Origin: Terriglobia bacterium
GTDB taxonomy: Bacteria > Acidobacteriota > Terriglobia > Bryobacterales > Bryobacteraceae
Reading direction: 5' to 3'
Assembly (NCBI GenBank): GCA_025358575.1
Contig: JANYJA010000173.1
Location: 1-40,831 of the forward strand
Length of the DNA stretch: 40,831 bases
The notes under the pieces are model-generated. The model worked only from the letters and a program-made list of their open reading frames with translations, had not been told where the DNA came from and did no database searches. Below are positions 22,567 through 26,707 of this stretch, in pieces. The position numbers and the translations under genes are program-made. Positions within the stretch are counted from its first letter, which is position 1. Each line of letters starts with the position of its first letter.

Positions 22567-23379
22567 GTGGTGATTGAACAGCTTCAGCCCGGCGCTTCCG
22601 CGGCGCATACCCGTGTATGCTTATTTGATTTCGACGGAACCATTTCTACCATTCGTTCGGGTTGGATGGAAGTCATGATTCCGATGATGATGGAGATCCT
22701 GCTCGACCTGAAAACGGGCGAGAAGGAGGAGGTTCTCCGCGCCATCGTCGAGGAGTTCGTCGGCCGCCTCACGGGCAAACAGACCATGTACCAAATGATC
22801 GAGCTGGCGGAAAACGTGAAGAAGCGCGGCGGCACCCCGCTGGAGCCGCTGGCGTATAAGACGATGTACCTCGACCGTCTGCACGAGAAGATCGGCTACC
22901 GTCTGGAAGAGCTTCGAAACGGCACCGTGGAACCCGAGAAATATATGGTTCCCGGTGCGCGCGAGTGGCTTGAGCTGCTTAAAGAGCGCGGGATGAGGAT
23001 GTACCTTGCGAGCGGAACCGACCACGCCTACATGAGCGAAGAAGCGCGCTTGCTCGACGTGGTGAAGTATTTTGACGGCGGCGTTTTCGGAGCGCGTGAC
23101 GACTACCAGAGCTTCTCGAAGAAGATTTTGATTGCCCAGGTGATTGCTTCGGACGAATCCAAGGGCGAGCAATTTCTAGGCTTCGGCGACGGTTATGTGG
23201 AGATCGAGAACGTTAAAGAGGTCGGCGGGGTCGCCGTCGGTGTGGCGTCCGATGAACCGGACTGCATTGAGATCGACGCGTGGAAGCGAGAACGTCTCGC
23301 CAAGGTTGGGGCTGATTTCATCGTGCCCAATTATCTGGCTCGCGAACAGCTGGCAACCGCTCTATTTGGCGCGGCGTAG
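22567..23379 (+). CDS. HAD-family phosphatase
   Basis: The 270-residue HAD hydrolase has motif I FDFDGTIS (~residue 22), a large helical cap (~35-130), motif II YLASGTD (~150), a lysine in FSKKILIAQV (motif III) and motif IV GDGYVEIENVK. It should dephosphorylate a small phosphorylated metabolite. The start is one of two adjacent GTGs (22567 or 22570) directly after the hairpin; the longer upstream frame overlaps the porin and has no coding character. Its stop overlaps the next start by one base (TAGTG). As first gene of a cluster with a PfkB kinase and a GmhA-like isomerase, it may play the part of GmhB, although its cap differs from GmhB. Confidence 0.87.
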   Translation: MVIEQLQPGASAAHTRVCLFDFDGTISTIRSGWMEVMIPMMMEILLDLKTGEKEEVLRAIVEEFVGRLTGKQTMYQMIELAENVKKRGGTPLEPLAYKTMYLDRLHEKIGYRLEELRNGTVEPEKYMVPGAREWLELLKERGMRMYLASGTDHAYMSEEARLLDVVKYFDGGVFGARDDYQSFSKKILIAQVIASDESKGEQFLGFGDGYVEIENVKEVGGVAVGVASDEPDCIEIDAWKRERLAKVGADFIVPNYLAREQLATALFGAA

Positions 23380-24335
23380 TGCCCAGCAAGTATGAAGAGT
23401 TCGACCGTGCGCGGCTGGTTGTTCGTCCGCTGAGCGAACGGACTCATGACCTTCATCTGGACCACTGGTTGGAGCTTATCGATTCCACTCCTGCGTTTGA
23501 AGATCACAAGCTCGCCGGACTCGCACAACGTATCCGAAGCGCGCGTGAAACCAACGCGGCGCGTATATTAATGATGGGAGCGCATGTGCTGCGCAGCGGC
23601 GTGAGCCGTCATTTGATCCATCTGCTGGAGCGCGGCTGGTTCACGCACTTGGCCTTCAATGGAGCCGGCGCGATCCACGATTTCGAACTGGCCCGCATCG
23701 GCGCCACAACCGAGAGTGTAGCCCGTTATATACGAACTGGCGAGTTTGGGCTGTGGAAAGAAACTAGCGAATTGAACGAATGGATATCGGACGCGGCGCG
23801 CGATGGCGAAGGACTCGGTGAAGCGGTGGGACGCCGTATCGAGCAGAGCCAGTTTCCGCATCGCGATCTCAGCGTTTTTGCCGCGGCATGGCGTTGCCAT
23901 ACTCCAGCGACAGTTCACGTGGGAATCGGATACGACATTCTGCATGAGCATCCAAACTGCAACGGAGCTGCGACGGGAGAAGCGAGTTATCGCGATTTCC
24001 TCATTTTCGCTAGGACAGTTGAGAAACTGGAGGGCGGTGTCTTATTGAGCTTCGGGTCGGCGATCATGGCTCCTGAGGTTTATCTAAAAGCACTCGCGAT
24101 GGCCCGCAACGTGGCGCACCAAGAGCAGCGGGAGATTGGTAACTTCTATACTGCCGTTTTCGATCTTGTGCCGAAGAGCGATCTGGGCTACTATTTCCGT
24201 CCGCGGAAAACGATACTCGAGCGAACGGTTGCCGACGGCGGCGAGAGTGAATATTTTTGCGGCGAGCACCGGGCTACCATTCCGGCTTTGTGGAGGGCGC
24301 TGGGTGACGGACGCAGAGATTCTAGATCGCGCTAA
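23379..24335 (+). CDS. Unrecognised enzyme-like protein, possibly deoxyhypusine-synthase-like
   Basis: I do not know this 318-residue family. It has no signal peptide or membrane helix. A Rossmann-like core is suggested by ILMMGAHVLRSGVSRHLIHL (~66-86) and HLAFNGAGAIHDFELARIG (~91-110), a pattern that recalls deoxyhypusine synthase (a ligand-binding G-A-I-H-D after a hydrophobic strand). Later conserved-looking blocks are HVGIGYDILHEHPNCNGA (~185) and GGVLLSFGSAIMAPEVYLKA (~210), also typical of a nucleotide- or sugar-binding fold. The GTG start overlaps the HAD stop, and its end overlaps the PfkB start by 32 nt, so it belongs to the operon. A step on a sugar phosphate is inferred from neighbours only. 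Confidence 0.7.
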   Translation: MPSKYEEFDRARLVVRPLSERTHDLHLDHWLELIDSTPAFEDHKLAGLAQRIRSARETNAARILMMGAHVLRSGVSRHLIHLLERGWFTHLAFNGAGAIHDFELARIGATTESVARYIRTGEFGLWKETSELNEWISDAARDGEGLGEAVGRRIEQSQFPHRDLSVFAAAWRCHTPATVHVGIGYDILHEHPNCNGAATGEASYRDFLIFARTVEKLEGGVLLSFGSAIMAPEVYLKALAMARNVAHQEQREIGNFYTAVFDLVPKSDLGYYFRPRKTILERTVADGGESEYFCGEHRATIPALWRALGDGRRDSRSR

Positions 24336-25278
24336 AGGCCTCTCGGCGTTGGTGATTGGGGATATTTGCCTGGACCGCTGGTGTACTTACGACCCGGCGC
24401 TGGGTGAGGCGTCGCTTGAAACCGGCATTCCGCGAGTTGGCGTGGTCAAAACCGAAGTGACGCCCGGAGCGGGCGGAACGGTGGCGAACAATCTTGCGGC
24501 ACTCGGCGTGGGCCGCGTGGCTGTGCTGGGCGCGGTTGGAATGGACGGTTTTGGGCATGAATTGGCGGAAGCTTTAAAGGGACGCGGCATTTTATCGGAC
24601 TTCCTGATCCGTTCTTCGTCAATGCAGACATTTACGTACACCAAGCTGATCAATGTAACGACCGGCAAGGAAGACCTTCCGCGCATCGATTTCATTTCCA
24701 CCGTGGAGATCGAGAAAGAGACGGAGCGAAAGCTTCTGGACGCAATTTTGCCAGCGGTAGATGCGTTTGACATGATTGCGATCGCCGATCAGGCGGAGAC
24801 CGCGCGGGGCGGAGTGGTTACGGAAGCGGTGCGGAATCTGCTGGCGGACCTCGCACCGGCGTATCCCGATAAAGTTTTCCTGGCGGACTCGCGAGCGCGG
24901 CTCACGCAGTTTCGGAACGTGGCTGTGAAGCCGAACGAGCACGAGACGGCGGGCGCGTGCAATGAGCTGTTCGGTTGCGCGGATCTTGCGGCGTTGCGAA
25001 GGGCACTGCGGGCGCCGTGGATGATGGTGACGCACGGCGCGCGCGGCGCCGTCGTGGTCAGCGATAACGGTGAGCAATGGGTGCCGACTCGTCCGGTTGA
25101 ACATCCCGTAGATATTTGCGGGGCGGGGGATAGTTTTTGCGCGGGTGCGCTGGTGGCCTACGCATTGACGCGTTCGCCGGTGCGCGCCGCGGAATTCGGA
25201 AATCGCGTGGCTTCCATCACCATCATGAAACGGGGAACCGGCACCGCGAATGCCGCTGAAGTGTTGGGTATCCCATGA
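24304..25278 (+). CDS. PfkB-family sugar kinase, HldE-kinase-domain-like
   Basis: The 324-residue ribokinase-fold protein resembles the kinase half of HldE/RfaE: an early VIGDICLDRW, a PGAGGTVANNLAALG glycine loop (~60) and the PfkB signature DICGAGDSFCAGA with the catalytic aspartate (~275). It also has MMVTHGARGAVV before it. HldE kinase phosphorylates D-glycero-D-manno-heptose 7-phosphate at C1; here the cytidylyltransferase-like C-terminal domain of HldE is absent. I place the start at the GTG at 24304 because the recognisable domain begins there. The stop overlaps the ROK start (ATGA). Actual substrate unknown. Confidence 0.87.
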   Translation: MTDAEILDRAKGLSALVIGDICLDRWCTYDPALGEASLETGIPRVGVVKTEVTPGAGGTVANNLAALGVGRVAVLGAVGMDGFGHELAEALKGRGILSDFLIRSSSMQTFTYTKLINVTTGKEDLPRIDFISTVEIEKETERKLLDAILPAVDAFDMIAIADQAETARGGVVTEAVRNLLADLAPAYPDKVFLADSRARLTQFRNVAVKPNEHETAGACNELFGCADLAALRRALRAPWMMVTHGARGAVVVSDNGEQWVPTRPVEHPVDICGAGDSFCAGALVAYALTRSPVRAAEFGNRVASITIMKRGTGTANAAEVLGIP

Positions 25279-26123
25279 ACACGCTTGCGGTTGACATTGG
25301 CGGGACCAAATTTGCGATGGCGGTGTTCGAGGGCGCGGTGATGGTGCGGCGTGAATCGATGAAAACAGATGCAGCGGGCGGGCGCGACTGGATGCTTGGC
25401 CAATTGGAAGCGATCATCGCCGCATGGCATCGCGAGTTTCGATTCGACCGGTGCGGGATCGGATTTGGCGGTCCCGTCGACTTCCGAGAACAGCGCATTG
25501 CGCTTTCTACTCACGTGAGCGGCTGGCGCGATTTCCGGCTGACGGAACACATTCGGAGAGTGATCGACGCTCCAGTTGTCATGGACAATGACGCCAATGT
25601 CGGGGCCTTGGGGGAAGCACGGTTTGGCGCGGGCCGGAATTGCTCGCCGCTCTTTTACATGACTCTGTCGACCGGTGTCGGGGGCGGGATACTGATTGAC
25701 GGCGCGGTGCAGCGCGGCGCGAATTCCTGGGCGGGTGAAATTGGTCATATGAACGTGCTGCCGGAAGGGCCGGAGTGCCTTTGCGGCTCGTTTGGATGCC
25801 TGGAACGCATGTGCTGCGGGCTGTGGCTGCAGCGCGATTACGGGAAGAGCGGCGAAGAGTTGATGCAAGATCCCGATTTCGTGAGTGGTTACGTGGTGAA
25901 TCTCGCGCGCGGACTCAAGGCCTGTATCATGTTGTTGAACCCGTCTCGAATTGTGATCGGCGGGGGAATTAGCAAGGCTGGTCCAAATCTTTTCGGCCCG
26001 CTGCGAATAGAGCTGCGAAGGCAGATCACGTCGTGGTCGGGCGCGCGAATCGACGTGGTGCCCGCGGAGCTGGGAGACGATAGCGTGTTGTGGGGGGGCT
26101 TGGCCCTGGCGGAATCATTATGA
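25275..26123 (+). CDS. ROK-family sugar kinase
   Basis: The 282-residue protein has the ROK layout: ATP-binding LAVDIGGTKFAMAV at the N-terminus, catalytic aspartate in VVMDNDANVGALGEARFGAG, STGVGGGILIDG, and the zinc motif GHMNVLPEGPECLCGSFGCL with its His and three Cys. A DNA-binding helix-turn-helix is lacking, so it is a kinase-type and not a repressor-type ROK. Likely substrates are glucose, N-acetylhexosamines or fructose. It overlaps both neighbours by 4 nt, indicating tight co-translation. In a cluster with PfkB and SIS enzymes a second sugar kinase is odd and suggests either two phosphorylation steps or salvage of the free sugar. Confidence 0.92.
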   Translation: MNTLAVDIGGTKFAMAVFEGAVMVRRESMKTDAAGGRDWMLGQLEAIIAAWHREFRFDRCGIGFGGPVDFREQRIALSTHVSGWRDFRLTEHIRRVIDAPVVMDNDANVGALGEARFGAGRNCSPLFYMTLSTGVGGGILIDGAVQRGANSWAGEIGHMNVLPEGPECLCGSFGCLERMCCGLWLQRDYGKSGEELMQDPDFVSGYVVNLARGLKACIMLLNPSRIVIGGGISKAGPNLFGPLRIELRRQITSWSGARIDVVPAELGDDSVLWGGLALAESL

Positions 26124-26707
26124 CTTTTGCGGATGCATATCGAAGCGAGCTTCGCGGGGTGGTCGATTCCATCGACACGGGGCTGGTGCAGCAGGCGATC
26201 GGACTCTTCGAAGAGGCGCGCCGCGACGGTAACCATATCTTCGTGTGCGGGAATGGCGGGAGTGCTTCGACGGCGTCGCACTTTGCGTGCGATATGGTCA
26301 AGGGCGCGAGCTACCAGCGCGACCGTCGTTTCCGAATCATGGCGCTTACGGATCAGCTACCAACTCTGACGGCCTATGCCAACGATGTGAGTTACGACTG
26401 CGTGTTTGTGGAGCAACTGCGCAATTTCGCGCAGCCGGGCGACCTTTTCATGGGGATTAGCGGGTCGGGAAATTCCCCGAACGTGCTGCGCGCGATCGAG
26501 TACGCCAATGAAATTCGATGCAAGACCATCGCGTTGACGGGCCGCGACGGGGGCAAGCTTGCGCCCCTGGCGCAGCTCAATATTCACGTGGCGGCGCCGC
26601 ACATGGGACGGATTGAAGACGGTCATATGATTGTGTGTCATATGATTGCGTATTACTTCATGGAGCAGCCAGAGGGCGCGCCTCAGTCTCCTAGACAAAT
26701 AACGTAG
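26120..26707 (+). CDS. SIS-domain isomerase, GmhA-like
   Basis: The 195-residue protein is a single SIS domain close to phosphoheptose isomerase GmhA: CGNGGSASTASHFACDMVKG (~48-67), a SYDCVFVEQLRNFAQPGD block (~92), ISGSGNSPNVLRAIEYA (~115), and the C-terminal IEDGHMIVCHMI helix that in GmhA carries zinc-binding and catalytic residues. GmhA converts sedoheptulose 7-phosphate to D-glycero-D-manno-heptose 7-phosphate. The ATG at 26120 overlaps the ROK stop (ATGA). It is the last gene of the operon and overlaps the convergent glgC by 17 bp. Substrate is inferred. Confidence 0.9.
   Translation: MTFADAYRSELRGVVDSIDTGLVQQAIGLFEEARRDGNHIFVCGNGGSASTASHFACDMVKGASYQRDRRFRIMALTDQLPTLTAYANDVSYDCVFVEQLRNFAQPGDLFMGISGSGNSPNVLRAIEYANEIRCKTIALTGRDGGKLAPLAQLNIHVAAPHMGRIEDGHMIVCHMIAYYFMEQPEGAPQSPRQIT

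Follow-up and report, generated by a model that had tools for sequence, protein, structure and literature searches.

Five overlapping genes in the DNA of a Terriglobia bacterium (Bryobacteraceae; GenBank assembly GCA_025358575.1) form a real and widely conserved module. They lie on contig JANYJA010000173.1, whose 40,831 nucleotides, taken as a whole, are called the window here, and they encode, in order, a HAD phosphatase, a protein of the GSU2086 family (G2), a PfkB kinase, a ROK protein and a SIS isomerase. On balance, and with modest confidence, we favor the reading that the operon provides the cell envelope with a nucleotide-activated, heptose-like sugar by an alternative route, in which the HAD would take the place of GmhB and G2 would supply an extra step.

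The draft genome that contains the window (95.6% complete, 261 contigs) encodes enzymes, or likely relatives of enzymes, that act downstream in the classical ADP-heptose pathway. These are a heptosyltransferase II (TIGR02195, 209.5 bits, over the cut-off of 134.6), a gene resembling heptosyltransferase I that lies where a contig ends (173 bits against a cut-off of 185), and a stand-alone HldC-like nucleotidyltransferase gene that adjoins mfd (177.5 bits, just under the cut-off of 181.5). A preliminary description of this DNA had held that the gene set lacks a nucleotidyltransferase; none is present among the five operon genes, but the HldC-like gene probably supplies one elsewhere in the genome. 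Searches of the draft genome gave no GmhA-like gene besides the operon SIS (TIGR00441, E<=1e-15), no HldE-like kinase besides the operon PfkB (TIGR02198, E<=1e-25), and neither a GmhB-type HAD (TIGR01656, E<=1e-12) nor an HldD (TIGR02197, E<=1e-40). Since the downstream enzymes are present and no other upstream ones were found, the upstream enzymes could only be those of the operon, unless others are missing from the draft.

A conserved five-gene module

The operon occupies positions 22,567 to 26,707 of the plus strand in the order HAD-G2-PfkB-ROK-SIS, as read from open reading frames and family searches. The successive overlaps of 1, 32, 4 and 4 nt given in the preliminary description agree with the coordinates. 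The HAD-superfamily phosphatase (PF00702, 1e-10) is encoded at 22567..23379, with a GTG start at 22567 or 22570, and is followed by G2, assigned to type A (23379..24335), the PfkB-family sugar kinase (24304..25278; PfkB Pfam model, 9e-33), the ROK-family hexokinase-like protein (25275..26123; PF00480, 6e-55) and the GmhA-like SIS sugar-phosphate isomerase (26120..26707; SIS_2, 3e-20), all on the plus strand.

A search of genome contigs with a G2 profile gave 473 stretches with a relative. Gene order was counted in the best 80 of the 473, which are near relatives, so that the counts hold for these and not for the whole G2 family. Apart from L072 and L107, the 80 are labeled as Acidobacteria or subgroups thereof, under names such as Bryobacter and Terriglobia that we take to denote Acidobacteria. 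The same order had been proposed for a search elsewhere, and it was complete in 35 of the 80 stretches, with the remaining 45 holding fewer of the genes, collinear and on the same strand: HAD-G2-PfkB-ROK (19), HAD-G2-PfkB (15), G2-PfkB (4), HAD-G2 (3), G2-PfkB-ROK-SIS (3) and HAD-G2-PfkB-SIS (1). The run stops close to a contig edge in 15 of the 80. Conservation of the five-gene order therefore excludes a chance grouping. The preliminary description had also left open that the order might end with close relatives, and it does not, as HAD-G2-PfkB-SIS, with no ROK in the run, is found on a plasmid from another phylum, Chloroflexota.

The module varies at its edges. No HAD was seen adjoining G2 in three g43 genomes and G036, and the operons of seven genomes (G008, G013, G014, G015, G018, G032 and G036) have no SIS, with a SIS of the same subfamily encoded elsewhere in each genome. 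One operon-type kinase reading (G050:C88:79533-80477) carries a single internal TAG, and is perhaps a broken gene or an assembly error.

The operon enzymes and the predicted fold of G2

The closest relatives of the isomerase and kinase are enzymes of ADP-heptose synthesis. The best PDB match of SIS is GmhA (5i01, 2e-30) and that of PfkB is HldA (4e84, 8e-13), and the first-ranked NCBIfam models are those for GmhA and for the HldE kinase domain. The GAGD catalytic motif is aligned in 11 of 11 kinases compared, type A included. The earlier naming of a GmhA-type isomerase and an HldE-like kinase holds to this extent, but both proteins score far under the curated cut-offs (127.2 versus 209.45 bits for SIS with TIGR00441; 130 versus 345 bits for PfkB with TIGR02198) and differ at conserved positions, SIS belonging to a subfamily distinct from GmhA, and their substrate therefore need not be D-glycero-D-manno-heptose 7-phosphate.

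The phosphatase had likewise been counted among the ADP-heptose activities. It is a HAD protein, with motif I (FDFDGT) from residue 20 and motif II (SGTD) from residue 149, about 120 residues lying between them, and these motifs are invariant in 14 of 14 aligned HADs. GmhB is a capless HAD. The operon HAD, judged from its sequence, is instead a capped enzyme and not of the GmhB type, and no match to TIGR01656 or GmhB was obtained at E<=1e-3. The ROK protein, whose best PDB match is a glucokinase (3vov, 4e-37), contains C-x-C-G-x-x-G-C, presumably the ROK zinc motif. It does sit in the operon as a second sugar kinase, as had been described, but by its distribution it is an accessory member, ROK not being seen in the operons read from the f3 family of the order. 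Compared with the classical ADP-heptose pathway, the operon thus has an isomerase and a kinase nearest to GmhA and HldE in a genome with HldC-like and heptosyltransferase genes, and differs by the sub-cut-off scores of these enzymes, the other HAD type, the extra protein of deoxyhypusine synthase fold described below, the ROK, and the lack of any HldD found.

G2 had been described as belonging to an unrecognized family. It matches no Pfam family at E<=1e-3, but it scores 379.4 bits against a cut-off of 250 with NF052581, 'GSU2086 family protein', a name that gives no function; its membership rules out that G2 is an orphan. The family itself is thus already in databases, and no published function for it was found in the open-access library searched, nor any joint treatment of deoxyhypusine synthase and heptose; among the titles and abstracts listed there, none dealt with the operon. 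A tree calculated for 23 selected G2 proteins has class B and class C each as a clade (SH-aLRT 100) and groups type A with the two plasmid proteins (SH-aLRT 89). Other phyla were sampled through plasmid records, in which two plasmids encode a type-A G2 that is 54% identical to the protein of the window.

The comparison with deoxyhypusine synthase suggested for the second gene was borne out at the level of predicted structure. An AlphaFold2 model built from 13 sequences (pLDDT 78.7, pTM 0.83) matched deoxyhypusine synthase in Foldseek (E 7e-8, TM 0.55), and in VIA it came closest to AgrE/ArgZ, in the ornithine-cyclodeaminase domain (Z 18.8, rmsd 3.8 over 220 residues), with deoxyhypusine synthases reaching Z 17.2 (the matches at about Z 17 span 235-250 residues). 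G2 does have, as predicted by this model, the deoxyhypusine synthase / ornithine cyclodeaminase fold. Sequence comparisons point weakly in the same direction. The G2 profile matched only ArgZ/AgrE (E 0.003-0.03) and 8put (0.75) in the PDB at E up to 1, and where the family has weak matches across the genomes, they fall on ornithine cyclodeaminases of TIGR00300, a model described in NCBIfam as nickel-pincer nucleotide-dependent. G2 itself has no TIGR00300 match, NF052581 being its sole NCBIfam match at E<=1e-3, and the two profiles align by hhalign with a probability of 54% over one stretch of 66 columns only. It differs from deoxyhypusine synthase by an identity of 10-15%, the want of a Pfam match and its sugar-phosphate context. 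Judged by family scores, G2 is neither a genuine deoxyhypusine synthase nor a genuine ornithine cyclodeaminase.

Thirteen polar residues are invariant in 14 chosen type A, B and C sequences: H69, N94, H100, D101, E103, E112, H180, D186, D206, K237, N244, D262 and R274. Because residues 183-198 have pLDDT <50, the active site is not resolved in the model. Deoxyhypusine synthase and enzymes of the TIGR00300 type keep a hydride carrier bound and use it for reactions without net redox change, and because both fold-related groups work in this manner, we guess that G2 does so as well. Of the 61 genomes compared in the next section, 60 have LarC, a marker for synthesis of the nickel-pincer nucleotide, 48 have LarA and 42 have TIGR00300. 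Since LarA or TIGR00300 can explain LarC in 59 of the 60 LarC genomes, the presence of LarC does not settle whether G2 uses this cofactor. The pairing in these 59 is in keeping with the nickel-pincer name that NCBIfam gives to TIGR00300; the remaining genome, G060, has LarC without LarA or TIGR00300, and only a type B G2.

Type B paralogues (L023, which is contig C104 of the window's genome, L024, L025, L031 and L037) tend to adjoin uvrA and a CPBP intramembrane protease gene, and mtnA comes next in L023, L025 and L031, as assigned by partly checked families and otherwise by locus similarity. A part for these paralogues in the pathway was rejected, as their neighbors in L023, L025 and L031, matched in part, are UvrA, the CPBP protease and MtnA, and not heptose genes. 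At L034:7396-9546 (G004, contig C3), the 3' ends of a class C G2 gene and an HldD gene face each other.

Distribution of the module and of the classical genes

The module was compared with classical heptose genes in 61 genomes under thresholds that we set: TIGR00441 above 160 bits for gmhA, TIGR02198 above 250 bits for hldE, and any TIGR01656 match for gmhB. The curated cut-offs were passed in 1 of the 61 genomes (TIGR00441) and in 5 (TIGR02198). Type-A proteins of Acidobacteria separate from their paralogues by phmmer score, at least 407 versus 149-183 for G2, 234-309 versus 84-107 (136 in G059) for SIS and 285-439 versus 43-72 for PfkB, with the qualification that split or cut genes score lower and plasmid proteins fall between the classes. 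The type-A kinase occurs in 45 of the 61 genomes, and a G2 of type A or C accompanies it in 44 of these 45; the sole exception, G039, is 64% complete.

The module was present in 46 of the 61 genomes, and classical genes were less frequent in its presence. By Fisher tests, which ignore descent, gmhA was found in 3/46 genomes with the module versus 8/15 without (p 2.5e-4), gmhB in 14/46 versus 11/15 (p 0.006), and hldE in 6/46 versus 8/15 (p 0.003). HldD, over its cut-off in 5/61, occurred in 4/46 and 1/15. A replacement of HldD by G2 was considered and dropped, as HldD is rare whether or not the module is present and shows no link to it.

Members of the G2 family also occur beside kinase and isomerase genes outside Acidobacteria. 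In Geobacter sulfurreducens, PMC5585712 gives consecutive locus numbers to hldE (GSU2085), GSU2086 and gmhA (GSU2087), with Tn-seq defects of -3.1, -3.2 and -3.7, respectively, for which polar effects are possible. By locus number only, a G2-family member thus stands between hldE and gmhA there, and the kinase is annotated in that source as a bifunctional HldE, unlike the PfkB of the operon. On plasmid pDCAR1 of Solidesulfovibrio carbinolicus, a gene for a nucleotidyltransferase-kinase fusion is followed by G2 and SIS, beside pseudaminic-acid-type genes and in a cluster that also holds a transketolase.

The proposed route and its alternatives

From the gene order and its conservation, the family relations, the predicted fold and the content of the draft genome, we infer a substrate, an order of steps, a reaction for G2 and a role for ROK. 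SIS would convert sedoheptulose 7-phosphate, or a relative of it, to an aldose phosphate; PfkB would add a phosphate at C1; and the HAD would remove the distal phosphate in GmhB's place. The nucleotide would then be attached by the HldC-like enzyme whose separate gene adjoins mfd, and the GT9 heptosyltransferases would use the activated product. G2 may add one more reaction, with a phosphorylated intermediate as its substrate; the best guess for it from the fold is a redox-neutral hydride transfer with a bound cofactor, such as an epimerization. ROK may salvage free sugar into the pool.

A more specific idea, which we hold tentatively and regard on the whole as unlikely, is that G2 is the first of a new class of sugar-phosphate enzymes built on the deoxyhypusine synthase fold, namely a cofactor-bound (NAD or nickel-pincer nucleotide) heptose-phosphate epimerase. 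The operon would then make an undescribed heptose stereoisomer, or would set C6 before nucleotide activation and render HldD unnecessary. To our knowledge, the deoxyhypusine synthase / ornithine-cyclodeaminase fold is known so far for amine chemistry. If the favored reading, the alternative heptose route, is true, a whole branch of Acidobacteria makes its envelope heptose by enzymes missed by the curated family models used, with a different type of phosphatase and one additional enzyme, and the GSU2086 family gains its first function, together with a sugar reaction on this fold. In the Tn-seq data of PMC5585712, GSU2086 itself was scored as required for Geobacter to grow on electrodes.

Several observations weigh against the proposed heptose route. 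Of the four positions His-Glu-Gln-His, which we take to be the catalytic and metal set of GmhA, type-A SIS keeps both His but has Asp for Glu and Glu for Gln in at least 95% of 78 type-A rows. The type-A kinases have an insertion, and two features of the classical HldE rows, EAPV and T-x-x-K-x-R, are missing from them, with S-x-E-T-G-I-P-R in place of EAPV in the kinases of Acidobacteria; together with the Chloroflexota protein the type-A kinases form a separate clade (support 100/99). The fused kinase of Solidesulfovibrio is not type A and falls on another branch, in a tree made unsure by long branches; the fusion is therefore no proof that the type-A product is nucleotide-activated, and is weakened as such an argument. 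HldC-like genes, found in 42/46 genomes with the module, are also present in 15/15 without it. Both gene sets occur together in some genomes, with all three classical genes in G004 and part of them in others, and G023 and G031 have a type-A SIS in genomes in which type-A PfkB, type A or C G2 and classical gmhA were not found.

The complementary pattern also weakens once descent is considered. The tree-aware test used a LarC tree of 60 genomes (G054 has no LarC, and G058 is a short, long-branched row) from a quick search that left 30 of 57 inner branches open, and the paired tests left out G005, G006, G016, G039 and G055. This tree gave only 4 supported independent contrasts, and the gmhA trend was therefore unable to reach significance: over 200 pairings, gmhA went the opposite way to the module in 2.2 of 4 and the same way in 0.1 of 4. 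No paired trend was seen over the 200 pairings for gmhB (0.5 opposite, 0.4 same) or hldE (0.6 opposite, 1.1 same). We regard replacement of GmhA by type-A SIS as a lead and not as proof.

The preliminary description had offered either a variant heptose route or salvage, of which we favor the former and keep the latter as a rather unlikely rival. In a salvage or catabolic pathway, ROK would phosphorylate a free sugar, G2 and SIS would rearrange it, PfkB would form a bisphosphate, and the HAD would clear overflow or dead-end phosphate. The Chloroflexota run fits this, as it lies directly downstream of a sugar-uptake cluster with a ribose-type sugar ABC transporter, two Gfo/Idh dehydrogenases, deoC, a xylose-isomerase-like protein and GntR, and with a ROK gene at its far end; that cluster looks like one for uptake and catabolism. 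The kinship of the operon ROK to glucokinase is in accord with salvage, and so is the BBP2 porin gene that ends 46 nt before the HAD gene. Yet the flanking genes, which in the window include glgC on the opposite strand on the 3' side, show no conservation among the Acidobacteria relatives, and no aldolase or dehydrogenase is conserved next to their operons. Nor would catabolism readily account for a dedicated phosphatase, for f3-family operons in which ROK is not seen, or for a pattern complementary to gmhA.

It is quite unlikely that the module makes a nucleotide sugar or sugar phosphate other than a heptose, for example one derived from a pentose, hexose or octose and used in glycans, storage or signaling, with G2 setting the stereochemistry. 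The diverged motifs of SIS and PfkB, the coexistence of classical hldE in 6 of the 46 module genomes, and the transketolase and pseudaminic-type genes of the Solidesulfovibrio cluster would suit such a product, but it would leave the draft genome with heptosyltransferase and HldC-like genes and no known route to their substrate. That G2 is a regulator or chaperone on a dead enzyme fold, outside the chemistry of the pathway, is very improbable: the operons of G002, G004 and G007 do lack G2, but in each of these genomes a divergent G2 of class C, which forms its own clade, is encoded elsewhere, and the polar residues listed above, N94 and N244 aside, are invariant in the 14 chosen sequences of the three types, as in an active site.

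Two further observations concern the neighborhoods of related genes. The HldC-like gene lies directly before an mfd-like gene in eight loci (L133:1626-5586, L134, L135, L136, L137, L141, L146 and L147), with mfd checked in L133 and assigned by similarity in the other seven. In G058, in which no G2 was found, a polysaccharide-type cluster on contig C50 (L165) contains a transaldolase, transketolase-like halves recognized by eye and a nucleotidyltransferase-kinase fusion, and possibly serves another heptose-like sugar.

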